DNA from: a virus
IMG/VR virus record: IMGVR_UViG_3300020147_000019
Coordinates: 1-40,209 of that record
Strand: one strand, 5' to 3'
Length of the DNA: 40,209 nt
Shown: one piece after another, positions 9,181-27,726 of the stretch
Layout of the letters: the number at the start of each line of letters is the position of its first letter
How positions within the stretch are numbered: the first letter of the stretch is position 1
Made by a program: the position numbers and the translations under genes
Notes under the pieces: generated by a model
Database searches by the model: none
Told to the model about the DNA's origin: nothing
Seen by the model: only the letters and a program-made list of their open reading frames with translations

Positions 9181-9612
9181 ATGGCAGACGCAGCTTTAAA
9201 CATAGATGGAAAGCAAGTCCTTCTTTCCATTTCAACAAACACCGAGACACCGGACTACAAAACCGTTGTTTGCTCGGTGGATAACGGGTTGAGTGGCTCC
9301 CGCGATGTTAACTCTGTTTCGACAAAGTGCGGAACGGTTAAAGCGGGTGGTTCACCAAACTACACGGTCACGGGTAGCCTGGCCGCGAACAGCGCGCCGG
9401 AATCCGATGAGATGAGCGCAGATGCTTTGCTTGCTCTGTTTGAGAGCGGCGATGACTTTTTGTTTAAGATGGCTCATATAACCACACCGGCAGATTACTA
9501 CCGGGCAGGTACCGGTTTCTTTTCGTCCTACAACGAAACAGCAAACGATACTGACCTGGTACGTGCAGACTTCACTATTGAAGTGAAGGGTGGGCTTGAC
9601 TTGACACCATAA
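9181..9612 (+). CDS. major tail tube protein
   Basis: A 143-residue beta-rich protein (residues such as GKQVLLSISTNTETPDYKTV and PNYTVTGSLA). It has the size, composition and position (before the chaperone pair and the tape measure) of a TP901-1-type major tail protein. It would polymerise into the tail tube. It has its own short leader after the preceding gene. Confidence 0.75.
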   Translation: MADAALNIDGKQVLLSISTNTETPDYKTVVCSVDNGLSGSRDVNSVSTKCGTVKAGGSPNYTVTGSLAANSAPESDEMSADALLALFESGDDFLFKMAHITTPADYYRAGTGFFSSYNETANDTDLVRADFTIEVKGGLDLTP

Positions 9613-10045: not shown

Positions 10046-10296
10046 ATGACTGTCTGATCGCTGACCTGCTCATGCACATAGCGGCGAGGAACCGGGAACG
10101 GCAGGATGAATACGAAAAGACAAGGCTTTTGGCTTATTGCATCGCAAAGTACGGCAACAGTGATCCAAAGAAGTTTCCACCGTCCCCTAAAAAGTTCATG
10201 CCCTTCGATTGGGATGACAACACAATAAAAGATGATGATCCGCTGGCAATGGCTGCAAGGTCAAGACCATGGAGAAAATACATGAATAATGGCTGA
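9979..10296 (+). CDS. tail assembly chaperone, T part (reached by -1 frameshift)
   Basis: The -1 frame reads SNISWYDFRIECINAGIENS directly after the A run, then RIDDCLIADLLMHIAARNRE and on to the stop at 10296, overlapping the tape measure start. Together with residues 1-119 of the upstream ORF it would give a 224-residue G-T fusion. A separate 74-residue product from ATG 10072 is possible but would discard 31 residues that look coding. In lambda-like tails the fusion loads the tape measure while the short form coats it. Confidence 0.8.
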   Translation, partial: SNISWYDFRIECINAGIENSRIDDCLIADLLMHIAARNRERQDEYEKTRLLAYCIAKYGNSDPKKFPPSPKKFMPFDWDDNTIKDDDPLAMAARSRPWRKYMNNG

Positions 10297-12394
10297 GGAA
10301 TCTCTTAAAATAAAGTTCATAGCTGACGATGGCAACCTGGTAAAATCAATCAACCAGATTGAATCGGAACTTGCAGGACTTCAAAAGAAGCTCAAAGAGA
10401 CCACCAATATTCAGGTATTTAAGCAGACGCAAATCCAAATCAACGAATATCAAAAAGGACTTGCTAAACTCGGAGGACAGGCAGGGAAAACAGGCAAGGA
10501 CTTTACCAATTTTGGCCGTGTTATTCAGGATCTTCCTTATGGATTTCAGGGCATTCAAAATAACCTTACTCAACTCATTCCCTCGGTTGGTGCGCTTGGA
10601 CTTGCATTTACAGGGGTGGTGGCGGCGCTGACATTCGCACAGGTAGGATTTGGTGCATGGACACGGGGCATGGGTGGGGCAAGTGCTGCAGCGAATGAGA
10701 ACACCAAACGGCTGAAAGAAGCAAAGGCAGCGTTACAGGATTACATTGATTCACTTGATGACATCAGCAAAGCAAGGGTTGAAGGGGCGCAGAATGCGCA
10801 GGAAGAACTTGTTGCCTTAAAAACACTATACACCGCTACCCAAAACGCAAACATTCCTCTTGCCAAAAGAAAAGAGTTAGTTGACGAACTGCAAGAACAA
10901 TACCCTAAATATTTCGGCAATATCCGCGACGAAATCATACTTGTTGGAGGCGCTAAGAACGCATATGATAGTCTTACTAAGGCCATCCTTCAGAAAGCCA
11001 GAGCCCAAGCAGCCGAAAAAGCAATAGCAGATATACAGGGGCAAATTCTTGGTTTGGAGGAACAGCAGAACAGCAATCTTAAAGAACAGACCAAGCAACT
11101 TAGGTTAGTGCAAAAAGCCCGGGAGAATCTGTCGAACCAGCCAGATTTTGACCCAAAAGGCATGGCAGCAGTTGACAGCAGGAGCTTGCAAATTCAAAAC
11201 GATTTCAATAAGCAGCAGGGCATATTAAATTCTTTGTCCAAGGAAGGTGTAAATATCCAAAAGCAGCGAAACGATCTTTTGGAACGGGCCCGCCGTCTGA
11301 CAACCGAACTAACCAGCATTACGGAGGCCACACCGGACGTATTACTTGATCCCGGTGCTGCGCTTCCAAAGCCAAAGAATATAAAAACAGAGGTAAACTT
11401 CTTTGATAAATTCCTCTCATTCGATCCCTCAAAAGTAAAAGCCAAATCAAAGGAATTTGTGCAGGCGCTGGATATCGCCAAAGAATTTGCCCTGCAGAAC
11501 CAAGATATTTTCCAGGGGCTTGATGCGATACTTAAAGAAGGAAACACCCAAGGGGCGATTGATGTTGCCCGCGAGTGGTGGGAGAACTTTCAAAAAGGTA
11601 TTTACCGGCTCAAAACTGAGCCCATTGACCTTTCAGGGACCAGGCCAAACTTTGGTACAGGCATATCGGATTTAAAGGAAATCAGCTCGAAAATAAAGAT
11701 CAAGCCTGTTTTACTCACCAACACTGCCAATCAGGAGCTGATTTCACAATATGAATCATTTAAGAAGATTGGTTCTGAAATTGGTAAGAGGCTCGGGTCT
11801 GGCTTTGATGAAGAATTTAAAAAAATATTTGATAATGCCTTTTTAAAAGCTGCTAAAAATGGTATTGGCGGACAGCAAATGGAAGAATTTATGTCATCTT
11901 TTGCAGCAGCTTCAGAAGTGGCCGCAAAAGGCATCCAAGGGGTGAGTAATGCGTTTGGAAGTTTCGTTGATGCGATTATGCGCGGTGAGAATGGAATGGA
12001 GGCGTTTGGCGAAACTCTTAAAAACACTTTCCGTCAAATCGCAGTTGAGATCACTAAAGCCATTGTTTTGGCGGCAATCTTATCTGCCCTGTCGGGTGGG
12101 AAAACCAGTTTTTTGCAAGCATTTGGAAATGTATTGAAAATGTCTAAGGGTGGTTTTGTGCCTGGTACTGGCAACAGCGATTCCGTGCCGGCCATGCTTA
12201 CACCCGGCGAGTATGTCATTCCCAAGAACATGGCCCAACGGCTGAAGAATAGCTCAATATTCAATCCGTTCAACGCTCAGTCCATCGGCCCACAGGTACA
12301 GGTATTGGTGCCAGCAGTCACATTAAGAGGACGTGATCAGGTACTGCAATTTGCAAGAACATCAAGACACCAGAGGGGGCTGGTTGGCAGATGA
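10289..12394 (+). CDS. tail tape measure protein
   Basis: A 701-residue protein, helical and Gln/Lys/Glu-rich over most of its length, with a hydrophobic stretch at about 98-121 (PSVGALGLAFTGVVAALTFA). The C-terminal MSKGGFVPGTGNSDSVPAML followed by TPGEYVIPKNMAQRL is a hallmark of tape measure proteins. It sits directly after the chaperones. At roughly 1.5 angstroms per residue the tail would be about 105 nm, an estimate from general siphovirus behaviour. Confidence 0.92.
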   Translation: MAEESLKIKFIADDGNLVKSINQIESELAGLQKKLKETTNIQVFKQTQIQINEYQKGLAKLGGQAGKTGKDFTNFGRVIQDLPYGFQGIQNNLTQLIPSVGALGLAFTGVVAALTFAQVGFGAWTRGMGGASAAANENTKRLKEAKAALQDYIDSLDDISKARVEGAQNAQEELVALKTLYTATQNANIPLAKRKELVDELQEQYPKYFGNIRDEIILVGGAKNAYDSLTKAILQKARAQAAEKAIADIQGQILGLEEQQNSNLKEQTKQLRLVQKARENLSNQPDFDPKGMAAVDSRSLQIQNDFNKQQGILNSLSKEGVNIQKQRNDLLERARRLTTELTSITEATPDVLLDPGAALPKPKNIKTEVNFFDKFLSFDPSKVKAKSKEFVQALDIAKEFALQNQDIFQGLDAILKEGNTQGAIDVAREWWENFQKGIYRLKTEPIDLSGTRPNFGTGISDLKEISSKIKIKPVLLTNTANQELISQYESFKKIGSEIGKRLGSGFDEEFKKIFDNAFLKAAKNGIGGQQMEEFMSSFAAASEVAAKGIQGVSNAFGSFVDAIMRGENGMEAFGETLKNTFRQIAVEITKAIVLAAILSALSGGKTSFLQAFGNVLKMSKGGFVPGTGNSDSVPAMLTPGEYVIPKNMAQRLKNSSIFNPFNAQSIGPQVQVLVPAVTLRGRDQVLQFARTSRHQRGLVGR

Positions 12395-14598
12395 AACCAG
12401 GTGTAATATACCGGGGATATTTTGAGAATGCACAGCTGCTGTCCATGAACAACGGCAACGGCGAGGATGGTCAGCAAGTGATCATCTCCATTGAGGATAT
12501 GGAGACCCTTATAGATGATGCGGCCACCGAGACTATTTATGACCTCTCAGTAAACAACCAACTAACAGATAAACCTTTGGCTGCCTCGGTAATTGACAAC
12601 TCAGAGGATAAACACACGGTAGTAAGAAGCAAGCAAGTTGAAATAAATATTTTCTCAGGCAATGGCATTGACCTGTCCACTTTCTCAACGGGTGGTGATC
12701 TCAGGTGGCGGGTGAAAATCGCGGTGAATGACTTGAACAACATTCATTTTATTGGCTATCTGTCAACAGCTGACATATCAATGGACTTTGTGCCCGATCC
12801 TGCGTTGATCACACTTATTGCAACGGACAATTTGGGCCTTTTGGGTGAGGTTCCCTTAACAGGATTCTCAGGAGAAAGAGTGACAGGTGAGCAGAAGCTG
12901 TCCACCCTTATAGCCATGGCGCTGCACAAAACAGGTCTTGATCTTGAAATAATCGCGATCCATAATGTAAGAGAGGAAAACCACCCGGATGACCACCTTT
13001 TTGACAGCATTTACCAGGATGTAAAAACCTACGAAAGGACAACCACAGAAAAAGAGGATTGTTATACAGTCCTTGAAAAGATACTCGGTGAATATTGTTT
13101 TATTACCCAATGGAAGGGGCGGTGGTACATTATGTCTGAAGATGAAATTTCAGACCCTACCGTTTACCCGGCCCGTTTTGATTCGGAAGGAAACTTTATC
13201 GAGTTTTTGAGCGGTGACACATTCCAGAAAGGGATTTTGGAGAATGAGGATTTGCAGTGGCAGGGGCTTCCTGATCCTCCACCTCTGGTTACTTTGACAA
13301 GGCCGCTGGCAGCCCTCATGCACAATTTCCGGTATGAGTTCCCTCTTGAAATTATTGACAACATTGATTTTTCCCGTGGAACAGATGATATCATTCCGAT
13401 TGTGGTTGATATGGGATGGCATATACATAGGTATGCGAATCTCGGCGCGTTCCCTTCCACCGGGGATAAGGACATTGTTTACTATGCTATTGACACCGGT
13501 AATTATTACAAATTCATTGGGCTTTCGTACGAACAGGTTTCGGGTACTGAAATTCCATCCGGCATTGCTTATGTGTGGGAAGATTGGACCCTGGAAAGGG
13601 TAGGCGGCGGGGTAGTGAACAGTACATCCTATATCGCTAAAATATTTCAGTCAGGCACTGAGATTGACAGGTATGGGGTAATCGGAGCCTCTGCAAATGC
13701 ACACCGGGTTATTTCCAATCCCGTAAAAGTTGGCAAATACGACAAATTCACCGTTTCGGTCGACAGAAGGTTGAGCGATAACCTAACCGGACCGGGACAG
13801 CAAACGGATTTTGTTTTTCAACTCATTCTTGAAGGCAATGACGGCAGCACATGGAACGTAGATGATACTGGTGCTTGGTCCTTGATTGACAAGTTTATTG
13901 AGATCCAATACAACCGCGATGATACCGATGAAGAAGAATGGGCAAATGTATCGGTAGAAACCCGGCCTATTCCGGTCAGCGGGAAATTAAGAATCGCGCT
14001 TTATCAGTCTCAGTTTACATCAGCCGTGCAGACACAGTTTGCAAATCTGAGGTTTGAATATATCGCCTTTATCAATGGCTCCTATCAGCGTTATCCCGGT
14101 CACCAGCATAAAATCTCACAGGCATTAAATACCAAAGTAGTACGGGAAAAGGATGTGTTTATTGACAATGCACCGCGCCCTTCAATGAAAGGGGCCATGC
14201 TGGTAGCGGATGGAGTTGATTTTGTTCCTGCAGGCCGCTTCTTTAATTGGGCGCACGTACCAACGCCAACGGAGGATCATTATCATCCTTACGGTTACAC
14301 GCGGGCGCAAGCTGCCTGGAACCAATACAACAGGCAGATGGTAATGTTTGACGGAACGGTGATCGGCCTGCAATCGGGCGAAACGGACGGTGAAGGACTA
14401 CCCAACAGCCCGGACCTTTTACACCGGTATGTTTTCGGTGACGTGGACAATACCACCATCAACAGGTTTTTTCAACTGCTTCATTACGAAATGGACTATA
14501 ACCTATGCACGTGGCGGGGCTTCTTTTATGAGGTCTACAATACAGCCATAGGTAAGAAATACGATGATACTTATGAATACAAATATTTAAGCGAATGA
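12391..14598 (+). CDS. tail tip / baseplate hub protein
   Basis: A 735-residue protein directly after the tape measure, where siphoviruses encode the distal tail/hub proteins. Residues about 200-265 (REENHPDDHLFDSIYQDVKT, then TEKEDCYTVLEKILGEYCFI and QWKGRWYIMSEDE) resemble the hub fold segment common in Bacteroidota siphoviruses. The middle has a beta-sandwich-like insertion (about 430-560). The C terminus is His/Tyr/Trp-rich (HVPTPTEDHYHPYGYTRAQA). The exact subfunction (Dit versus Tal) cannot be told by eye. Confidence 0.65.
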   Translation: MKPGVIYRGYFENAQLLSMNNGNGEDGQQVIISIEDMETLIDDAATETIYDLSVNNQLTDKPLAASVIDNSEDKHTVVRSKQVEINIFSGNGIDLSTFSTGGDLRWRVKIAVNDLNNIHFIGYLSTADISMDFVPDPALITLIATDNLGLLGEVPLTGFSGERVTGEQKLSTLIAMALHKTGLDLEIIAIHNVREENHPDDHLFDSIYQDVKTYERTTTEKEDCYTVLEKILGEYCFITQWKGRWYIMSEDEISDPTVYPARFDSEGNFIEFLSGDTFQKGILENEDLQWQGLPDPPPLVTLTRPLAALMHNFRYEFPLEIIDNIDFSRGTDDIIPIVVDMGWHIHRYANLGAFPSTGDKDIVYYAIDTGNYYKFIGLSYEQVSGTEIPSGIAYVWEDWTLERVGGGVVNSTSYIAKIFQSGTEIDRYGVIGASANAHRVISNPVKVGKYDKFTVSVDRRLSDNLTGPGQQTDFVFQLILEGNDGSTWNVDDTGAWSLIDKFIEIQYNRDDTDEEEWANVSVETRPIPVSGKLRIALYQSQFTSAVQTQFANLRFEYIAFINGSYQRYPGHQHKISQALNTKVVREKDVFIDNAPRPSMKGAMLVADGVDFVPAGRFFNWAHVPTPTEDHYHPYGYTRAQAAWNQYNRQMVMFDGTVIGLQSGETDGEGLPNSPDLLHRYVFGDVDNTTINRFFQLLHYEMDYNLCTWRGFFYEVYNTAIGKKYDDTYEYKYLSE

Positions 14599-15302
14599 GT
14601 GACGTGGTACAAGGCAAAAACGTAAGGGTTCAAAAGGACGTCTCCGGTGTCTTTCATGATATCGGGTGCGGCATTGACTGCCAGTTTTCCGTCACCAACA
14701 CGTTTTTGGGAACCACGATCAGGACGGATGGATCAGGGCCTTTCATCAAAAGAAGGAAGCAGCTAACGGATTGCACGGGCTCAGTATCGGGAGTGACCAA
14801 AACGACAAACTCAGGCGGCCTTTCAGTATTTCATTTTTTGGAGGAAGCCGTGATGGGATCAGCGGGAAACTACCGTTTCATTTTTGAGGATGACAACGGT
14901 GATGAAATAGTAATTACCATGTCCGCTTTTGTTGAAGCAACTAATATTTCAGGAAACATGGGTGATATGTCCCGCTTTGATCTGAATGTTCTTGGAAACG
15001 GAGGGTTTGCGATGAGTGAGCTCGCTGCGCCGGACAGCCCAATAGCAGATGAGCCATTCAGTGATACTTGGATCCTCGCCGAGGGTGAAACATCCATCAG
15101 CGGGCCATCATCGGTTCACGCTTACTCGCTTGTAGGTAAAGAGATCATTGACGTTGCGGTGGAAGGTTTGGGTTACGATCCAACCACGGGAACGCCAGGC
15201 AACCGGCAGTATGTTTTTGACAGCGGAGCGGGTACGATAACATTTGAATACGAAGCACCATCAGGAGGGCAGCGGGTGTTTGTTGAATTTAAAGACGCAT
15301 GA
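14595..15302 (+). CDS. tail-tube-like minor tail protein
   Basis: A 235-residue protein overlapping the hub gene by 4 bases. The N-terminal about 145 residues (TTIRTDGSGPFIKRRKQLTD then CTGSVSGVTKT and FHFLEEAVMG) look like a tail-tube-type beta fold. The C-terminal part (about 150-235) is a separate beta domain ending in GGQRVFVEFKDA. It may be a decoration or tip-proximal tube ring. No established family is certain. Confidence 0.5.
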   Translation: MSDVVQGKNVRVQKDVSGVFHDIGCGIDCQFSVTNTFLGTTIRTDGSGPFIKRRKQLTDCTGSVSGVTKTTNSGGLSVFHFLEEAVMGSAGNYRFIFEDDNGDEIVITMSAFVEATNISGNMGDMSRFDLNVLGNGGFAMSELAAPDSPIADEPFSDTWILAEGETSISGPSSVHAYSLVGKEIIDVAVEGLGYDPTTGTPGNRQYVFDSGAGTITFEYEAPSGGQRVFVEFKDA

Positions 15303-15556
15303 TGACGTATAAAAAGATTTTGCTGACACTAAACGAAGGGGCGACAAAAGTTAGCCATCCTGAACTGATCGGCTCATACCCTGTAAAGGTGAGACGTGAG
15401 GGATCAGCGTATTCGATAGTGAGGTTCAATGCTGTTGTGGGAGCATCAAGCGATGATCTGACAGCAACATTCAGCAGGCCAATAGGGAGGCTTGCATTTA
15501 AAAACGCAGGCAGCCCAGGCGGCGAAAAAATATTGGTTTCGTATAAAAAGAATTGA
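15299..15556 (+). CDS. hypothetical tail-region protein, 85 aa
   Basis: An 85-residue protein overlapping the previous gene by 4 bases and ending just before the fibre gene. The pattern TYKKILLTLNEGATKVSHPE, YPVKVRREGSAYSIVRF, then GEKILVSYKKN suggests a small beta-sandwich. No family is recognised. Its position suggests a fibre-attachment or tail-tip accessory protein. Confidence 0.55.
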   Translation: MMTYKKILLTLNEGATKVSHPELIGSYPVKVRREGSAYSIVRFNAVVGASSDDLTATFSRPIGRLAFKNAGSPGGEKILVSYKKN

Positions 15557-15558
15557 CT

Positions 15559-18500
15559 ATGAAAAGAATCTTAATAATGTTAATGGTCCTGGCAAGCATC
15601 AAGTCATTTGCTCAGCCAGTACCGAGGCATACAAGAATAAACCAATCCTACCAATGGCCGAGCGGTGTGTTTGATTCAACCCTTGCCAACCCTGTACGCG
15701 ATACCACCGTGAATGCCGTGCGTATCGGTGAACAGCGTTTCAGGGTGCAGGACAGTTCGATCTATGTTGCGGTTTGTACTTCTGCCTGTGGTGGTCCAAA
15801 ATGGAAAAAGGTGGGAACCGGTACCGGTGGCTCAGATGGTAATAACTATGTGGCAGATGCCGATTTTGTTGATTCAATACTTACAATAGAGCGTAATGGT
15901 CTGCCTGATGTAACCGTCAAGATAAAACCGAGGGTTGATACCTCAGATGTGGTGAATATCCTAAAGGCGGGGGTAGTGGCTAACATGGATTCACTAAAAG
16001 CAACCCGGCTATTTGAAAATGGCATCCGAAGGGTATGGACACAAGGCTACTATTCACCCGGTGACGGTGGTGATGCCCGATACATTTACGTTGACACATC
16101 CACCAAAACACCGGATGACAAGTTTATCATTCTGCCTGCAGGAAAAACTACAGCAACCGCCGGGCGGTGGGAACTGATGATAGAGAACCAATCGCTCAAC
16201 CTTTTACAAATCGGGGCAAGGATTACACCCAATATCATTTTCGCGGGAACATCAGGCGCATTCGACAACTACGATGTTATCATGTCCGCGCTGAGGTTTT
16301 GGGATAACTACAAATGGTTTTCGGAGATCATCATTCCGGGCCTTGGTTCTACCCTCGATGGCCTTTTTGTAGGTCGCAAACTTCAAATTCACCAACAGAT
16401 CAGGATAAAGGGACAGATACCAGGGGTGGTAAGCGACCGCAAGGCGAAACTGATCTTTACCAATACGGCGGGACTTGAATTTTTATATCCCAATCCCGGT
16501 GATGTGGTTTCTTATTCAGGAAGGTATTATCAGGCACTTCAAAAACACTCTTTAGGCAACGCCCCAACAGGTACGGCCTCGGATAATGACTATTGGGAAG
16601 ATTTGGGAACGTCTTATGCTAACCTGTCAAGTGTTTATTCCGATACTGTTACCTATTATGGCAATAGCTACGGCGCTGAAGAAGCATGGGTTGAGGATCT
16701 TGTGATACGAAACATACCCTTTCCTTTTTCCAACTACCTGAGCGATTCGACACTAACGGGGGTATTTTCAAACAACAGGCTTCACATGAGGCGGTGTTAT
16801 GTCATCGGCTTCCAGGGTGACGGTATATGGAGGCATGGCAATGTAGCGGATGTTCCGTATGCCACCAATGCAAGCGGCTGGACCTCTCAGGACAACTTTG
16901 TGCAGTTCAATGCGGGTTACGGTATGAAAATAACGGGCGGCGACATTAACACTTTCGTTTCGATCAATGACAAATTCACTTCCAATAAATACGCGGGCAT
17001 TTTGGATTCATCCCTTTTGGGTGGCGTGATCATCAAACCAGATTGTCACAATAACGGTATTTACGGCGCTGGTGGTGCCACCAATTCATCAGGTTATGTT
17101 TCATACAACGGCCTGTATTATGCAGCCCGTAAAAACTCAGTGAACCAGGCACCAACGGGGCTCCCAACCGATAACGAGTATTGGACCTATTACAGTGCAT
17201 CGGATTTGTGGGGAACGTCCGTACCCTGGACAAGCTCAACGCATCATCGGGCTATCGGTGGTGTGATGGTGCTGCGCGGATTTACAAAAGTGTCTGCTCC
17301 ATATTTGGAGGATGGCGGTTTTCACACAATAGTGGGCGGTACAGGATCAATGATGGATGGCGGTTACTCCATCGGCACACCCGTACTTGGTGCATGGCTG
17401 CAGGGGTCATGGAACCTCTCCACGCATCCTTACGGGACATTCGCATCAGGCTTTGAGGGCAAAGGCGCTTTCAGGGCAAGGCGGTTTGAGTGGCAGGGGG
17501 GAAGTTTTGAAGATGACAACCAGGGCGGCGTGATGCTGAAGTCTACAAACCTCCCTTATGTGCATTCCACCAATGGGCTGTCATACTACCTTGGGCCAAC
17601 CAATCCTTACGCCTTTGCAATGAACTCGGATGGGAATTTTGCTTTTGGCGATCACGGAGGCATCAACAACGCATGGAAAGTCAGCATCATTGGAAATTTA
17701 AGGGTCACCGGCTCTGATGTAAGATTCTCAGGTCTCAACAGGGCGCTTTTGGATTCGGCTGGTTACAAACTCACAGCGGTTGACGCAGATGGCGACATGG
17801 TGAAAATAGACTGGCCGACATTCGGCTCTGATGAGGATTTCGGAAACTATTACTATGAAAACTGGGTAGATCCCGATTCCGCTTTTTTTGCTCCGAGTGA
17901 TTCAGTGTTGAAAAGCAGGATGTATAAAGTTGCTGCTGCAAATAGCAAACTTACCGTAACGCCAACAAGAACGGACAGCACAACGCTGTGGACCGTGGGC
18001 GTCAATGAGGCGAATTTCACCGGCATCCCACAGTCAGCAGTAACGGGAATGAGTGATTCCCTTGCTGCACACCGGGCAAGGCTGGTGGATCTTGAAGCCA
18101 GCAGCGGTGGCAGCACACCGGGGATAGATGATGTGCTTGCGCAGGGTCAAACGCTCACAGCCACCCGCAGCCTGTCGGGTGGTACCTACTCCTTAAACCT
18201 TGGAACGGGGGGAAGCAAACTGTCGAATTTAACCGTCAACGCATCGGGGTATTTTCAGTTATACGGAGGATTCCAGCTTGATAGAGGCGTAGCAACGGAT
18301 GCCAACTACACGGCGAATGCTTACAGCCCGATGATTGTACTACCAACGATCACCGCAAACCGGACGCTTACCTTACCATCAGCGGGGGCAGGAAAGAAAA
18401 TAGAAATTCAAAACAACAACGCTACGTCTTTTCAATGGCAAGTGTCAGGCGTGAAAGATATAACCGGGGCCACAATTTTTGCTATCCCAAATCAATTTAT

Positions 18501-18903
18501 CGGATATCTGATAAACGATGGTACGGACTGGATCATTAATAACAGCGGGAAAACCGTTGAACATATGGTCATCGCGGTATCGGATGAGACTACAGCCATC
18601 ACCACAGGAACCGCGAAAGTTACTTTCCGCATGCCTTATTCCGCGACGATCACAGGGGTAAGGGCATCAGTAAATACGGTTTCATCATCTGGCACTCCAA
18701 CCATTGACATCAACGAAAGCGGCACAACCATTCTATCTACAAAGCTCACCATTGACGCAAACGAAAAGACAAGTACCACGGCTGCGAGTGCAGCGGTGAT
18801 CTCGGACAGTTCCATTGCTGATGATGCGGAGATCACCATTGATATCGATGTGGCAGGAACCGGCGCAAAGGGCCTTAAGATCATAATCTATTACACACGA
18901 TGA
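15559..18903 (+). CDS. large tail fibre/tailspike with beta-helix and N-terminal signal-like peptide
   Basis: A 1114-residue protein from ATG 15559 (a TTG at 15553 is less likely). The N terminus MKRILIMLMVLASIKSFAQ is a textbook signal peptide. Residues about 150-260 (YYSPGDGGDARYIYVD, IIIPGLGSTLDGL) resemble the start of Pectate_lyase_3-like tailspike beta-helices, and the beta-helix probably continues to about 720. Two related insertions at about 314-349 and 511-545 share Y-G-x-Y-Y...PTG...YW and look like small carbohydrate-binding modules. The C-terminal 110 residues (AVSDETTAITTGTAKVTFRM...) match a tip domain common in phage tail fibres. Likely role: receptor or glycan binding. Confidence 0.82.
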   Translation: MKRILIMLMVLASIKSFAQPVPRHTRINQSYQWPSGVFDSTLANPVRDTTVNAVRIGEQRFRVQDSSIYVAVCTSACGGPKWKKVGTGTGGSDGNNYVADADFVDSILTIERNGLPDVTVKIKPRVDTSDVVNILKAGVVANMDSLKATRLFENGIRRVWTQGYYSPGDGGDARYIYVDTSTKTPDDKFIILPAGKTTATAGRWELMIENQSLNLLQIGARITPNIIFAGTSGAFDNYDVIMSALRFWDNYKWFSEIIIPGLGSTLDGLFVGRKLQIHQQIRIKGQIPGVVSDRKAKLIFTNTAGLEFLYPNPGDVVSYSGRYYQALQKHSLGNAPTGTASDNDYWEDLGTSYANLSSVYSDTVTYYGNSYGAEEAWVEDLVIRNIPFPFSNYLSDSTLTGVFSNNRLHMRRCYVIGFQGDGIWRHGNVADVPYATNASGWTSQDNFVQFNAGYGMKITGGDINTFVSINDKFTSNKYAGILDSSLLGGVIIKPDCHNNGIYGAGGATNSSGYVSYNGLYYAARKNSVNQAPTGLPTDNEYWTYYSASDLWGTSVPWTSSTHHRAIGGVMVLRGFTKVSAPYLEDGGFHTIVGGTGSMMDGGYSIGTPVLGAWLQGSWNLSTHPYGTFASGFEGKGAFRARRFEWQGGSFEDDNQGGVMLKSTNLPYVHSTNGLSYYLGPTNPYAFAMNSDGNFAFGDHGGINNAWKVSIIGNLRVTGSDVRFSGLNRALLDSAGYKLTAVDADGDMVKIDWPTFGSDEDFGNYYYENWVDPDSAFFAPSDSVLKSRMYKVAAANSKLTVTPTRTDSTTLWTVGVNEANFTGIPQSAVTGMSDSLAAHRARLVDLEASSGGSTPGIDDVLAQGQTLTATRSLSGGTYSLNLGTGGSKLSNLTVNASGYFQLYGGFQLDRGVATDANYTANAYSPMIVLPTITANRTLTLPSAGAGKKIEIQNNNATSFQWQVSGVKDITGATIFAIPNQFIGYLINDGTDWIINNSGKTVEHMVIAVSDETTAITTGTAKVTFRMPYSATITGVRASVNTVSSSGTPTIDINESGTTILSTKLTIDANEKTSTTAASAAVISDSSIADDAEITIDIDVAGTGAKGLKIIIYYTR

Positions 18904-19526
18904 AAAGGATTTTAGTCATAGTGCTGATTTTGTTTTCAGTGACTTCAGAGGCGCAAATGCTTTTGAATCCTTATCGTCATACATCATCGGTTCCTTTTGT
19001 TGCTGATTCTATTAAGATTCATTTTTATTCTGGATCGAATGCTGTTGGCGGCAACTGGAACTCAGTAAACGGTACTACAGCCCTCACAAATCTTAAATGG
19101 TTCTCTGACGGCTCAAACTCAGGGGCAACAGGGACGCTATCCGCACAAAGCAGCGTAGCGGATCACGCCGTAGGTTACTGTCCGTCGCCCGTGTTCAACT
19201 GGCCGCAAGGTGTGCTCAGGTACACCTCGTCGCATTCAGCAACACGGACATTCACCATTAGTTCACTTCCTGCCGGTACTTACCAAGTAAGATTAGTGGC
19301 AACAAGAAGCACACAGGCGGTTACTCAAACCTATTCCATTGCAGGCAGCACAAGCTCAAATAATACGATTGCAGTAGGATCGAACTGCGGCGCTGATGAT
19401 GCGTTGTTTACTGACATAAGTGTGAGCGACGGAGGTTCTATTGTGATCACCGCAACCAATACCAGCAACGGCAATAATTATTTCACGGCTATGGTTGTGA
19501 CAAGGGTTTCAAATACGCTTCCATGA
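18900..19526 (+). CDS. putative exported beta-sandwich protein of tail operon
   Basis: A 208-residue protein overlapping the fibre gene by 4 bases. The N terminus MKRILVIVLILFSVTSEAQ is a signal-peptide-like sequence similar to that of the fibre gene. The mature part is Ser/Thr/Asn-rich and beta-like, with LRYTSSHSATRTFTISSLPA and a GTYQVRLVATRS strand typical of carbohydrate-binding or Fn3-like sandwiches. The function is unknown; a glycan-binding accessory to the neighbouring spike is plausible. Confidence 0.65.
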   Translation: MKRILVIVLILFSVTSEAQMLLNPYRHTSSVPFVADSIKIHFYSGSNAVGGNWNSVNGTTALTNLKWFSDGSNSGATGTLSAQSSVADHAVGYCPSPVFNWPQGVLRYTSSHSATRTFTISSLPAGTYQVRLVATRSTQAVTQTYSIAGSTSSNNTIAVGSNCGADDALFTDISVSDGGSIVITATNTSNGNNYFTAMVVTRVSNTLP

Positions 19527-22396
19527 TGAGATTTATAACCATATCGATCATTTTAATGGCAGGCATGATGGTTCTGAGCAGGGATTCAGCCGGCCCCGTT
19601 CCCTATGTGCCTACAATGGTCACTTATGATTCCACCTTCATGGGGCAACCTGTAAGAATCACCAGAAGGACAGATTTATTTTCCGGCAATTTCCAGTCGG
19701 TTGGGGCAGTGTATCATCCCGGCCTTGGCGAAGTTCCAAGCAGTAGTGTTTCAACCACCGTCAGAAATGGCCCACATGATTGGATGGACGACCCAGGGGC
19801 TACGTTTACAGGTGTGATTCAACTTGGCAATGGACCGTTTTATAATTTGGTTTTAATATCGATCAACCGCAATTGGGATTATCCAACTGGAACGACCCAG
19901 ATGGCAACCATGGATGAACTAATGAGTGGGCTTGTGTCTCATTTCAATATGGTTGATCTGAACTTAACTGGCATTTCTGCTGGGGGGTGGTTCGCACATA
20001 AATACGCGGCTGCTTACCCTCACAAGGTTAATTCCATTGTATCAGTGATGGGCGTCAATGCCAATGCCTCAATTACACAGCTGGCAACATGGGCAAGCGA
20101 TTACGGAGGCAAGGAACTGAACTTTGAAAACCTTAACGATACTCGCGGCGGTGATCAAATTGTCAACGCAATGAATGCGGCAGTCCCTGGGTCAGCGATT
20201 TACTTCAAAACAAAACTTGGTGAACCTGCACCTTATGGGCATGACAGCTATAAACTTGTTTACAACCCAACAAGGGCAACATGGGCCCACAATGCAACGG
20301 ACGTAAACAATACGATACCCGCCAGCCAGATCGTTTATTCTGATGTGCTAACCTGGATGGTTCGCCAAAGCGATACAACCATTGGCAGCGCAGGCAGCAG
20401 TAATATCCCGCCTACTGTGGATGTGGGTAGTGATCAAACTCTCACCTTCCCGGATAATGATGTAAGTGTAACCGCAACCGCTGCTGATGCAGACGGCACG
20501 ATTGCCTCTTACTACTGGGAAAAAATCTCAGGTCCGTTCTCATATGCAATAACAGACAACGACGGAGCTTCCACGGACATCACTGGAATGGAAACTGGCG
20601 TTTATGTTTTTCGATGCACAGTGACGGATGATGATGGCGCAACGTCCTATGATGAAATCACCATCACCATTAACGATCCTGAAGATGAGCCGCTTGTTGT
20701 GACAGCGTTTAAGGATACAACTTTAGCATGGGTTCAGACCAACAGCTGGGGGCTTACAACGCTACTTCCACTGTATGCCACGGCATCAGAAGCAGTAGAT
20801 GAATGGCATTGGGAAGTAATTGAAGGAACGGCGTCAGATATTACCTTCTCTACACCGGATAATGATTCTACAAACGCAGAAGGATTCCAACCAGGTATTT
20901 ACCGTTTCAGAGTAAATGCACTGACAGCAACAAAATCAGGTTCTGATACGATCACTATAAGAGTTGTGAATTATAATGAGAAAGGCCAATGCCCATGCAG
21001 GGAAGGACCGCCTGAGGTTCACGTAATAGGCGCTACAAATCAAATCTTCATTCCTTATATGCGAAGGAGCGGATATGACATTCAGGGCGGCGATACAATT
21101 AAGATCAATCCGGCTTCAAATGAATATGGAATTTATAACGGCATTAACATTGGAGACTTTGGAGGGAAGCCTGAATGTCCCGTTATCATAGTTCCCAACG
21201 GGGCGCCGGTTTACATTGGTGCGCTGCCGTCTGCTCCAACATTTACCAGCTTTTTCAGACTTGGCAATGGTACAGGCGATACGTGTTTTGTTTCTGACAT
21301 AGTGGTAGATGGAACATATTTGAGATGGAAAGGCTACCCGTATGGATTCTTACACATTGACCCAACGCCCTCAGACGGAGCAATTGGTATCACCGGTAAT
21401 CTGCTGAGGAATTTTGAATTTAAAGGGATATACCTGCAGGGCGTGGGCTCTGGCTTTGAAGTGAAACTAAATTCCGATTCTACAAGGCCATGGAGACTTG
21501 CATATCGGTTTGATCACGGGACCGGTATAATCCATGACAATTTCATCAGTAACAACCGCAATGAAACTACCTATATCGGTAACTCATATCCGGATAGCGG
21601 CGAAGAACACGACAACGACGGTGCCAGTGTCCGGGGTCTGGCTGTTTACATCTATAACAACATTGTGGATTCATCCGGGTGGGATGGACTGCAAGTATCT
21701 AACTGGCAATATGCGGAAATCCACAATAACGTACTGCTGACAACAGGAACAAAAAACAACGCAGTGCAGAGATCCGCAGCCGGTATCGGTGGGAACACAA
21801 CCGGTTACTTTAAAAACAATATTGTTTACAACGGCCATGATGGGTTTACATCAACTGGTTTTGGCCGCATCATTTTTGAAAGAAATTATTTCCAATTGGT
21901 AGACAACCGCGGCAACGGTGCCAGTGCAAACCACATTCTATTTGCGCCGCGACCAACAGGTCCGGGGACAGATGTTTTAGAAACCCGGGATTCGGGCCAC
22001 GCATATGTATTCAACAACATCTTCAACAAGCCGCAGGGGTATGCTTTCTGGGGCAAGAACACGGTAGGCGCAGCATCGAAAGGCATGGTAACTGGTAATT
22101 ACGTTATAGAATCCGGCAGTAGGGATTTAGACGATGTCCTTGTGACAGCCGCAGATGACACCATTGAAAACAACATTCTTTATACAGAACCTTTTGACCC
22201 TGTAATTGAGCGGATCGGTAATGCTACTGATGGCGTATTCATACGGGTAACGGTCGGCATCTACACTGCAGACTTTTACCCATCAGACACTATCGGTTCC
22301 GAAATATTTGATTGGATAAAACTTAGAATGCTCGGAGTGCGGCCGGCTGTATTGTCGGTACCACAGGGAACAAGGTTAAGAAGAAAGCCTGGATAA
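19523..22396 (+). CDS. exported alpha/beta-hydrolase + PKD + beta-helix protein (putative tailspike esterase)
   Basis: A 957-residue multidomain protein. Residues 1-22 are hydrophobic and signal-like. Residues about 30-285 form an alpha/beta-hydrolase domain: nucleophile elbow GISAGGW with Ser152, a candidate acid at Asp206, and His240 in PYGHDSYK. Residues about 295-385 are a PKD/REJ-type Ig domain (PPTVDVGSDQTL, TVTDDDGATSYDEITI), with a second Ig-like domain at about 388-475. From about 500 to 900, repeated short strands with Asn ladders (IHDNFISNN, YIYNNIVDSS, EIHNNVLLTT, YFKNNIVYNG) form a right-handed beta-helix. The whole suggests a polysaccharide esterase/depolymerase. Substrate and virion association are not shown. 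Confidence 0.8.
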   Translation: MMRFITISIILMAGMMVLSRDSAGPVPYVPTMVTYDSTFMGQPVRITRRTDLFSGNFQSVGAVYHPGLGEVPSSSVSTTVRNGPHDWMDDPGATFTGVIQLGNGPFYNLVLISINRNWDYPTGTTQMATMDELMSGLVSHFNMVDLNLTGISAGGWFAHKYAAAYPHKVNSIVSVMGVNANASITQLATWASDYGGKELNFENLNDTRGGDQIVNAMNAAVPGSAIYFKTKLGEPAPYGHDSYKLVYNPTRATWAHNATDVNNTIPASQIVYSDVLTWMVRQSDTTIGSAGSSNIPPTVDVGSDQTLTFPDNDVSVTATAADADGTIASYYWEKISGPFSYAITDNDGASTDITGMETGVYVFRCTVTDDDGATSYDEITITINDPEDEPLVVTAFKDTTLAWVQTNSWGLTTLLPLYATASEAVDEWHWEVIEGTASDITFSTPDNDSTNAEGFQPGIYRFRVNALTATKSGSDTITIRVVNYNEKGQCPCREGPPEVHVIGATNQIFIPYMRRSGYDIQGGDTIKINPASNEYGIYNGINIGDFGGKPECPVIIVPNGAPVYIGALPSAPTFTSFFRLGNGTGDTCFVSDIVVDGTYLRWKGYPYGFLHIDPTPSDGAIGITGNLLRNFEFKGIYLQGVGSGFEVKLNSDSTRPWRLAYRFDHGTGIIHDNFISNNRNETTYIGNSYPDSGEEHDNDGASVRGLAVYIYNNIVDSSGWDGLQVSNWQYAEIHNNVLLTTGTKNNAVQRSAAGIGGNTTGYFKNNIVYNGHDGFTSTGFGRIIFERNYFQLVDNRGNGASANHILFAPRPTGPGTDVLETRDSGHAYVFNNIFNKPQGYAFWGKNTVGAASKGMVTGNYVIESGSRDLDDVLVTAADDTIENNILYTEPFDPVIERIGNATDGVFIRVTVGIYTADFYPSDTIGSEIFDWIKLRMLGVRPAVLSVPQGTRLRRKPG

Positions 22397-22798: not shown

Positions 22799-23191
22799 AT
22801 GCAAGACTTCTTTAACAAAAACAAAGTGTTGATCGTGGGCCTGCTCTCAGCAGTGGCCCTGACATTAAATGAGCTTTTCGTCAAAGGTGAGACGTCAACA
22901 AAAGCCCTGGTGTTCGCGGCATTCCTCGCAGCCATTGGCTTTTTGGCAAACAACCTCCGCGGCCAGTGGGCAACCATTGCCGGTATTTTGGGTACCGCCC
23001 TTTCTACCTATGTCACCATGGAGCAACAGGGAAGCATTAGTTGGCCTCAATTGATCCTTCAGGCTGTGCTTGCCGTGCTTGCCATGTTTGCGCCTCCCAC
23101 TAAATCAAGGGGCTATGAACATACAAGTGTGATCGAGCAGGCGAGGTCTCACGGAGAAATGAAAACTCCCACCGCAATCGGGAAGAAATGA
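22799..23191 (+). CDS. putative holin
   Basis: A 130-residue protein with hydrophobic segments at about 9-27 (VLIVGLLSAVALTLNEL), 36-51 (ALVFAAFLAAIGFLAN), 57-74 and 84-100. The C terminus is short and charged (KTPTAIGKK). Size, several TM segments and the neighbouring lysis genes fit a holin that permeabilises the inner membrane. Its stop overlaps the start of the next gene. Confidence 0.7.
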   Translation: MQDFFNKNKVLIVGLLSAVALTLNELFVKGETSTKALVFAAFLAAIGFLANNLRGQWATIAGILGTALSTYVTMEQQGSISWPQLILQAVLAVLAMFAPPTKSRGYEHTSVIEQARSHGEMKTPTAIGKK

Positions 23192-23694
23192 GAACGCTAA
23201 TCCTAATCCTGCTGGTTTTACTGGCAGGATGCTCAGTAGAAAAGCGGGCCCAAAAGAAAGTCGCCTGGCTCCTCGCAAAAGACGTGATGGATGATGCGTG
23301 CGCCAGGCTGTACCCCGTGCGTGATTCCGTTGTTGTGCGAGATTCCCTGCACTTCGATACGCTGTATGTGGAAAATGAAACCTACATCCGGGATACGGTG
23401 GTAAGGGAAGGTCAGACGGTCTACATCGAAAAGAAATGCCCACCGCACCAGGTGATTACAAAGACGGTTACGCGGGACAGTTTTATTTACCGGACCAACA
23501 CGGCTGACGTGGAGCGGCTGAAAGGTGAAGTGCTTGCCGTTCAAAAGCAGCTTGTCGAAAAGGACGGTATCATCATCAACCAGCAAAAGAATTTGGATAA
23601 AGACAACTGGTGGAAGGTGGCTTGTATTGTAACGTGGTGCGGGGTTCTCTTGGGCTTTGTGTTCAGATTCTTTGTGGTTAAGAAGCCCATTTAA
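23188..23694 (+). CDS. putative unimolecular spanin (lipoprotein with C-terminal TM)
   Basis: A 168-residue protein with a lipoprotein signal peptide and lipobox LAGC (Cys15 after LILILLVLLAG). A soluble periplasmic middle with short repeated strands (RDSVVVRDSLHFDTLYVENE) is followed by a coiled coil at about 105-138. A C-terminal membrane helix lies at about 141-164 (WWKVACIVTWCGVLLGFVFR) with a basic end VVKKPI. Outer-membrane lipid anchor plus inner-membrane helix is the u-spanin architecture, which fuses the two membranes in the last lysis step. Its place next to holin and endolysin genes fits. Confidence 0.72.
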   Translation: MRTLILILLVLLAGCSVEKRAQKKVAWLLAKDVMDDACARLYPVRDSVVVRDSLHFDTLYVENETYIRDTVVREGQTVYIEKKCPPHQVITKTVTRDSFIYRTNTADVERLKGEVLAVQKQLVEKDGIIINQQKNLDKDNWWKVACIVTWCGVLLGFVFRFFVVKKPI

Positions 23695-23721
23695 AATGAA
23701 AAAAGCGGGAGCGACCCGCTT
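23695..23721 (-). terminator. intrinsic terminator, minus orientation
   Basis: The perfect stem AAGCGGG/CCCGCTT (23703-23709 with 23715-23721, loop AGCGA) is preceded on the plus strand by an A tract. It therefore reads as a stem plus T run on the minus strand. It could block antisense transcription arriving from the leftward genes, or act as a hairpin between spanin and endolysin. Confidence 0.55.
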
Positions 23722-23772
23722 GAGTATGACTTTCAAAAAACCGTGCTTAATAAAGTTATATAAAAAACCGAT

Positions 23773-24309
23773 ATGAAATTACCCGCAAAATATAAATGGT
23801 TAGAATCAGAAGGTGCCCCAAAGATGCTTGTGGAGGCAATAAAGCACTATGGAACGCTCGAGCATAAAGGCAAGGGGAGTAACCCCAATATCCTCGCATG
23901 GGCAAAAGAAGTGGGTGTCAATGGATGGTACGCTGATGATAATATTCCGTGGTGCGGGCTATTTGTTGGGGTGGTGGTGAAACGTGCCGGCTACCCGATC
24001 AAAAGCGATCTGCTTTCCGCTCTTTCATGGGCAAAGTTTGGGCAGGAAGTTCCAAAGGGGCGTGAAATGCTATGGGATATTTTGGTATTTACCCGGCCCG
24101 GCGGTGGCCACGTTGGCTTTTATGTTGGCGAGAATGACAATGCTTTTTTGGTGTATGGCGGCAACCAGGCTAACGCGGTTGGATTTACCTGGATTGCAAA
24201 GAGCAGATTATTTGCGGCCAGAAGGCCCATTTATAAAGTTGGAGAACCGGATAACGTACGGAAGATCCACCTCAGCGAAAGTGGTGAGCTTTCGACCAAT
24301 GAGGCATAA
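23773..24309 (+). CDS. endolysin, CHAP/NlpC-P60-like (TIGR02594 type)
   Basis: A 178-residue peptidoglycan hydrolase. The catalytic cysteine is Cys61 in NIPWCGLFVG and the histidine is His113 in GGGHVGFYVG, the order expected for CHAP/NlpC-P60 cysteine peptidases. The N-terminal YKWLESEGAPKMLVEAIKHY is typical of the TIGR02594 family of phage and prophage lysins. No signal peptide is present, so export would depend on the holin. Confidence 0.85.
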   Translation: MKLPAKYKWLESEGAPKMLVEAIKHYGTLEHKGKGSNPNILAWAKEVGVNGWYADDNIPWCGLFVGVVVKRAGYPIKSDLLSALSWAKFGQEVPKGREMLWDILVFTRPGGGHVGFYVGENDNAFLVYGGNQANAVGFTWIAKSRLFAARRPIYKVGEPDNVRKIHLSESGELSTNEA

Positions 24310-26523: not shown

Positions 26524-27108
26524 TTATTCTTGCAGTTTAGATACTGCCTCTTTCAGTCTTTGCAACATTTCCTCAACGTTCTTTATTTGCAGCCCAACCG
26601 TGGAGTAGGATCGGTATCTATCAACTTTTACTTGGTACGTCCACTGAAGTTCTTTTTTGATTATGGTATTGTAAGCGGCGAATTGAACATCATTGCACGT
26701 ATAAATATATTCGGTTCCTTCATCCTCCACATTTTGTTTATTTGCCACGAGAAAGTCAAGAAATTTAATTAGTCCAGGCAATTCATCTACATCAATGTAA
26801 CCAACGTAAGTATTTCTGGCATCAGTTGAATAAGTTGACAAGTAAAGTCCTTTCGTTATTAGACCACTCGCAACATCTTTTATAGTCAATGTCTTTAACG
26901 CCAGGTTGTTGGTTCCGATATTATACATAGCTAAAATGACCGCCCCCTTCGGGGAGTATTCCCATACGTCTTTGTATTGCTTTTTGATAATAGTACCGAC
27001 TTTGATTGCGTTCGCCTCCAACTTAGTATTTACGCTATTGGAGTCAATGTCTTGGGCGGCAGCCCATATGCCAGAAAAAAGGCAGCTTATAAAAATTATG
27101 TATTTCAT
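26524..27108 (-). CDS. exported hypothetical protein (lysogenic-conversion candidate)
   Basis: A 194-residue minus-strand protein with signal peptide MKYIIFISCLFSGIWAAAQ. The mature part is soluble, with a possible coiled coil at the end (IKNVEEMLQRLKEAVSKLQE). I do not recognise a family. It lies between integrase and repressor in leftward orientation, a typical place for genes expressed from the prophage that alter the host surface. Its start resembles that of the neighbouring barrel gene. Confidence 0.7.
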   Translation of the reverse strand: MKYIIFISCLFSGIWAAAQDIDSNSVNTKLEANAIKVGTIIKKQYKDVWEYSPKGAVILAMYNIGTNNLALKTLTIKDVASGLITKGLYLSTYSTDARNTYVGYIDVDELPGLIKFLDFLVANKQNVEDEGTEYIYTCNDVQFAAYNTIIKKELQWTYQVKVDRYRSYSTVGLQIKNVEEMLQRLKEAVSKLQE

Positions 27109-27219: not shown

Positions 27220-27726
27220 TTATTTGATCACGGCGCCGATCTTTAATGCGACACCATTATACATTACATGGTCGCCACGTCTTGTAAAAGTATGAGATGC
27301 AAAACCAACATTAATAAAGCCGCCTCCTAAAGTTTTGTTCGAAAATTTAATACCTCCGCCTGCAAACAGTGCCAAACCTCCCGAATTTGTTTGTCCGTTT
27401 TCGGTCCTATTGTAAATTCCGATACCCGGCGCAAGTATCAACATTGGAGAAACTTTCCCTGGCTTTTCATTAAATACAAACGATGTCCTTAGCTGCAAGG
27501 GAACAACTACACCTCCGAATGACTGAAAGCGCATGACCCCTATTTCTCCGCCGATAAAAAAATTTTTTCCTGCTTGTGCGTTGGCGCTAAAGTGAGCACC
27601 CACTATTGGATTTTGATTCTGCAAGAACGATCCTGAGGCACTAACTGTAAAGTATCCTTTGCGTTGTGCCATAGAAAGAGTAGGAATTAAGCACAAAGCA
27701 AAAATTATATATTTCATTTCTTTCAT
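27220..27726 (-). CDS. outer-membrane beta-barrel-like protein
   Basis: A 168-residue minus-strand protein. The signal peptide MKYIIFALCLIPTLSMAQ starts at the second Met (27717); ATG 27726 is three codons earlier. The mature chain alternates Gly-rich beta strands (GKNFFIGGEIGVMRF, GGLALFAGGGIKF, GGGFINVGFASHTF) in the style of small OmpA/OMP_b-brl barrels. It is encoded leftward next to the repressor and is probably expressed in the lysogen. Superinfection exclusion by surface change is a plausible but untested role. Confidence 0.72.
   Translation of the reverse strand: MKEMKYIIFALCLIPTLSMAQRKGYFTVSASGSFLQNQNPIVGAHFSANAQAGKNFFIGGEIGVMRFQSFGGVVVPLQLRTSFVFNEKPGKVSPMLILAPGIGIYNRTENGQTNSGGLALFAGGGIKFSNKTLGGGFINVGFASHTFTRRGDHVMYNGVALKIGAVIK

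Follow-up and report, generated by a model that had tools for sequence, protein, structure and literature searches.

Signal peptides on putative outermost tail proteins of a Bacteroidota siphophage and a possible export route for tail fibres

Assembly of tailed-phage virions is assumed to take place entirely in the cytoplasm, and tailed phages are not known to build their outer tail by way of the secretion machinery of the cell. In the Bacteroidetes, substrates of signal peptidase I normally carry glutamine directly after the cleavage site, a pattern referred to as the Q-rule (PMC5837995). Five Q-rule genes of unknown function have been described in phages of Porphyromonas gingivalis (PMC10367356). 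A paper on flavobacterial phages, covering families that hold several of the phages considered here, makes no mention of signal peptides (PMC8776804), and the DGR target proteins of phages do not carry them (PMC6199706). Among the open-access papers searched, none dealt with signal peptides of virion tail fibres.

Database records of isolate phages provide relevant examples. In Cellulophaga phage phi10:1, genes for the tape measure, tail tip, a tail-tube-like protein and a 116-aa protein are followed by five consecutive genes with Q-rule signal peptides, and gp091-gp094, which carry signal peptides, are annotated in the record as structural from 'experimental MS/MS'. MS/MS virion annotation is likewise recorded for the signal-peptide proteins gp101-gp104 of phi19:1 (gp104 being without the Q) and gp085-gp087 of phi18:3. 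Across the three phages, the fibre regions contain 12 signal-peptide proteins, of which 11 are so annotated; this count reflects notes in database records rather than raw data, and periplasm or vesicles that co-purified could have added to it. The same kind of signal peptide was found in phi19:3 and Ingeline. Signal-peptide fibres are not universal in Bacteroidota phages, because there were none in the tail genes examined of 11b, phi12:1, phi18:1, phi4:1, phi14:2, P2559Y, P12024S and P12002L.

The DNA analysed here (hereafter, the window) is an IMG/VR virus contig of 40,209 bases with the layout of a temperate siphophage, encoding terminase, portal, head, connector, two tail-tube-like proteins, tape measure, tail tip, three genes named here by their start positions (15559, 18900 and 19523), a putative lysis block and an integrase (Table 1). 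Matches to the tape measure protein include many phages of Flavobacterium, Cellulophaga, Bacteroides, Parabacteroides and Riemerella, and Bacteroidota as the host phylum would fit the Q-rule signal peptides of the window. Scans of genome contigs with the capsid and portal yielded no confirmed relatives. The tail-tube family phrog_1407 occurs twice, at 9181-9612 before the tape measure gene and at 14595-15302 after it, and the same doubling is seen in phi10:1 (gp084, gp089). In the lysis block, the spanin-like gene at 23188-23694, just 5' of the endolysin-like gene, encodes a lipoprotein (LAGC) for whose C-terminus a membrane segment is predicted.

Table 1. Features of the window bearing on the tail region; an arrow marks a predicted cleavage site.
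Feature	Coordinates	Strand	Remarks
Tape measure protein	10289..12394	+	Relatives include many Bacteroidota phages
Tail-tip protein	12391..14598	+	phrog_33803; has relatives in Flavobacterium 11b and Cellulophaga phi12:1
Tail-tube-like protein	14595..15302	+	phrog_1407; same position as the anchor gene of the survey
85-aa protein, possible adaptor by position	15299..15556	+	Lacks a signal peptide; occupies the position of the small protein (115-117 aa) in phi10:1, L111 and L112
15559 gene, 1114 aa, distal tail fibre/tailspike-like	15559..18903	+	Q-rule signal peptide predicted at residues 1-18; C-terminal module common to phage tail fibre/virion proteins
15559 predicted signal peptide, MKRILIMLMVLASIKSFA	15559..15612	+	Cleavage before Q19 (SFA↓Q); start reads MKRILIMLMVLASIKSFA↓QPVPR
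18900 gene, 208 aa	18900..19526	+	Q-rule signal peptide predicted at residues 1-18, SEA↓QMLLNPYR; start within preceding stop (ATGA)
18900 predicted signal peptide, MKRILVIVLILFSVTSEA	18900..18953	+	Cleavage before Q19 (SEA↓Q); start reads MKRILVIVLILFSVTSEA↓QMLLNP
19523 gene, 957 aa	19523..22396	+	Signal-like hydrophobic N-terminus without Q; residues 126-210 weakly match alpha/beta-hydrolases (esterase); PKD domain at residues 302-383
Putative lysis block downstream	22799..24309	+	Membrane protein 22799, lipoprotein 23188 (LAGC), endolysin-like 23773

A preliminary description of this DNA had pointed to three consecutive tail-region genes with signal-like N-termini. The three open reading frames lie where it placed them, and scoring with a rule-based script separated their signals by strength: 15559 and 18900 have a charged n-region, a strong uncharged h-region and a small-x-small site ending in A↓Q, whereas 19523, which starts MMRFITISIILMAGMMVLSRDSAG, is hydrophobic with a poor cleavage region and no A↓Q site and has the weakest signal of the three. 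The two A↓Q sites match the processing rule of the host phylum, which adds to the preliminary description, as does the recurrence of the design in many phages. In dinucleotide-shuffled DNA from the window, a Q-rule-like N-terminus arose in only 43 of the 12,753 ORFs that reached 60 aa (0.34% per ORF), and the Q-rule starts of 15559 and 18900 are therefore not due to chance. Apart from these two genes, A↓Q signal peptides in the window are confined to two minus-strand genes, 26524-27108 and 27220-27726; the tube, tape measure and tail-tip proteins have no signal peptides. The minus-strand pair lies beside the integrase gene, the product of 27220-27726 reads as a small glycine-rich outer-membrane barrel, and both products are candidate prophage-expressed surface proteins. 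The three starts are credible: 15559 begins 2 bases 3' of the stop codon of the upstream tail gene, and 18900 and 19523 overlap the stop codons of 15559 and 18900, respectively, by 4 bases (ATGA). Coupled translation with the rest of the tail operon is therefore probable for all three genes.

The wider distribution of such proteins was surveyed using as anchor the tail-tube-like protein that adjoins the fibres; two IMG/VR scans gave 125 loci, or 85 after dereplication. Among genes of at least 200 aa, Q-rule signal peptides were present in none of 206 upstream of the anchor versus 25 of 133 downstream of it (within 7 kb). Of the 18 signal-peptide loci, about half were recovered from a single metagenome (3300020045), the others deriving from at least seven further metagenomes and the isolate phi10:1. 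Fibre types were compared at 56 loci, those in which the sequence 3' of the anchor extended for at least 3.9 kb. Most of these (38/56) encode one long fibre with an N-terminal adaptor domain, and Q-rule proteins of 200 aa or more are absent from all 38; at 14 of the 56 the adaptor is a short protein, and a separate long Q-rule protein then follows in 13 (13/14 versus 0/38, Fisher p=2e-11, a value that overstates the association, as the loci are related). The adaptor profile found nothing in the remaining four loci, three of which are of the phi10:1 type with signal-peptide arrays. Because the fused and split states need 12 changes on the anchor tree, at least five of them forced by well-supported branches, these phages have switched repeatedly between the two states or have exchanged fibre cassettes. 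The predicted exported distal fibre is a recurrent design in Bacteroidota phages.

Several individual loci merit description. Among short-adaptor loci, L025 alone has no exported fibre; its 1114-aa fibre (L025:8479-11823) starts MADAPNLQNPTLG and has no signal peptide, and this start resembles the mature start (QTLQNPTFG) of the exported fibres in L066 and L075. In L144 and L073, extra genes separate the short adaptor from the gene for the exported fibre. In Bacteroides phage p00 (BK010646; L033:20053-20439), a Q-rule signal peptide is found outside the tail genes, on a small protein beside the lysin.

The relationship between the two states is apparent from direct comparison of their proteins. 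Residues 1-155 of the fused fibre of L046 are 78% identical to the separate short adaptor of L041 (L041:5851-6543, with its exported partner at L041:6545-9883), and residues 135-401 of the same fibre match residues 34-302 of the L147 exported protein at 79% identity (269 residues). In gp46 of phage 11b, homology to exported proteins begins at residue 142-162, directly after the adaptor. Thus, the signal peptide of the exported protein occupies the place that the adaptor has in the fused fibre. What is one polypeptide in one phage corresponds to two in another and, by the usual fusion argument, the separate adaptor and the exported protein probably act together, because elsewhere they are fused in a single chain. 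PHROG matches of the exported proteins are to tail fibres, tailspikes, virion proteins and pectate lyases; GDSL esterases and alpha/beta hydrolases occur among them, and one has about 300 residues of homology to tail fibre/tailspike proteins of Stenotrophomonas and Streptomyces phages. When 24 of them were aligned, M1 and Q19 were among only three near-invariant columns. Structure prediction for a second adaptor (AlphaFold pLDDT 63) gave the docking region of the CBA120 tailspike TSP4 as the best PDB match (E 1.2e-3, TM 0.24), which is only a hint. Disulfide enrichment as a sign of export was not seen, cysteines per 100 aa being 0.22 in exported versus 0.42 in fused proteins (p=0.005), and cysteine content is at most weak support for a periplasmic life.

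The case for the window itself draws on layout and sequence signals, because its proteins have almost no detectable relatives; a search of IMG/VR found no direct relatives of the 15559, 18900 and 19523 proteins. The three genes lie in the tail operon between the tail tip and the lysis genes, and the 85-aa protein followed by these genes resembles the arrangement of a short adaptor with a separate exported fibre. Residues 983-1108 of 15559 (18505..18882, + strand) form a C-terminal module common to tail fibre/virion proteins of five other phage records, with pieces 53-69% identical in Sphingomonas phage Carli, a 'tail fiber protein' of S-CRM01 and a 'virion structural protein' of a Rhodobacteraceae phage. 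No clear tail fibre sequence match was found for 18900 or 19523, and the long C-terminal part of 19523 had no family match. Two weak BLAST matches (E 0.003 and 0.007) link window proteins to exported fibres, and a profile of the phi10:1-type first fibre had no match in the window. Position, the C-terminal module and the BLAST matches suggest that the window proteins belong to the virion, and layout, signal sequences and the module would place the window in the exported-fibre group. An AlphaFold model of 15559, made from the single sequence without an alignment, was uninformative on its fold (pLDDT 33). An RD..W motif seen by eye in the N-terminal domains of window, phi12:1 and phi10:1 proteins was unsupported by hhalign and is not claimed.

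Our favoured explanation, which we consider probable, is that 15559, 18900 and 19523 encode the outermost tail parts, exported by Sec, Q-processed by the host and docked onto tails built in the cytoplasm. The 15559 protein would be a tailspike or fibre, 18900 an accessory fibre and 19523 an esterase-like fibre of a temperate Bacteroidota siphophage, and these outermost proteins alone would carry signals and enter the host Sec pathway. Signal peptidase I of the host would cut before Q, which would then presumably be cyclised to pyroglutamate, and the exported proteins would fold and wait in the periplasm. The tail would remain in the cytoplasm until lysis, with the small adaptor staying inside, and the mixing of compartments at lysis would be the most likely moment for mature fibres to dock onto the adaptor. 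Cleavage, periplasmic location, docking at lysis and similar behaviour of the window proteins and their relatives are all inferred parts of this scheme. With respect to the fates that the preliminary description had offered for exported proteins, fibres with a cleaved peptide and exported enzymes are jointly supported by the predicted Q-rule sites, the Cellulophaga MS/MS annotation and the adaptor/signal-peptide swap. Its further reading, surface-displayed decoys, found no backing: no type IX sorting domain (TIGR04183) was detected in the window or in 24 signal-peptide proteins, and a rule-based scan found no lipobox cysteine in 15559, 18900 or 19523. Because both signals are lacking, waiting in the periplasm would be the simplest fate.

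Export might instead serve proteins that never join the virion, such as secreted polysaccharide esterases or lyases or receptor blockers, by which an infected or lysogenic cell would strip its surface, free progeny or exclude other phages. The esterase/hydrolase match and PKD of 19523 and the GDSL and alpha/beta hydrolases among other exported proteins fit this idea, as do the two minus-strand Q-rule genes near the integrase and the precedent of phages with Q-rule proteins of unknown function (PMC10367356). It does not readily accommodate the record of positional equivalents in Cellulophaga phages as virion proteins, the fusion of nearly identical distal modules to a tail adaptor in sister phages, or the coupling of the genes to the tail operon together with the lack of surface-anchoring and type IX signals, and we regard it as rather unlikely.

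Every one of these tail proteins has a short hydrophobic N-terminus and cleavage itself is a prediction, so the segment might stay in place as a structural plug, holding the fibre in the tail tip or entering the membrane at infection. Against this, proteins with otherwise unrelated bodies repeatedly show the charge, the hydrophobic core and, near residue 19, the A↓Q that form the signature of the host peptidase (PMC5837995). The segment also takes the place of an adaptor that persists as a separate gene, and a retained plug is improbable. We give very little credence to the notion that mis-called starts or chance have put hydrophobic N-termini on ordinary cytoplasmic fibres. Ribosome-binding sites are weak in Bacteroidota, and 19523 has no proper cleavage site, but two starts are fixed by the ATGA overlaps, the chance rate per ORF is low, and recurrence is confined to one position in many phages, with none of the upstream genes affected.

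Should Sec export of the outermost tail proteins hold more generally, many Bacteroidota phages would use a second assembly route, in which the distal fibre is split off, Sec-exported, Q-processed, matured in the periplasm and docked only at lysis, with repeated switching between fused and split states; on this broader proposal our expectation is evenly divided. If it is true, several matters would have to be rethought for the phages of a major bacterial phylum: the order of assembly, what lysis contributes, how fibre stoichiometry is controlled and a possible action of tail enzymes before lysis. It would also account for the labelling of such genes as secreted enzymes by annotation pipelines. 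The earlier remark that this would be an unusual design for structural phage proteins stands.

In their K/R n-region, hydrophobic core and A↓Q, 15559 and 18900 are like known Bacteroidetes Q-rule substrates, but the latter are host proteins (PMC5837995, PMC10653852), whereas those described here are phage tail-region proteins, one of which (19523) is without Q. The P. gingivalis phage genes share with the window phage-encoded Q-rule signal peptides but differ in that outer-membrane modification, not a role as tail parts, was suggested for them (PMC10367356). 11b gp46 and the fused adaptor fibres from IMG/VR occupy the same place after the tail-tube-like protein, and their distal modules are homologous to exported proteins of split-type phages; they differ in having the adaptor domain within the same polypeptide and no signal peptide. 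Finally, although the fibre/pectate-lyase arrays of phi10:1, phi19:1 and phi18:3 have almost no detectable sequence identity to the window and their records are silent on signal peptides, they too contain signal-peptide proteins, annotated from MS/MS as belonging to the virion, and phi10:1 has the same gene order as the window.
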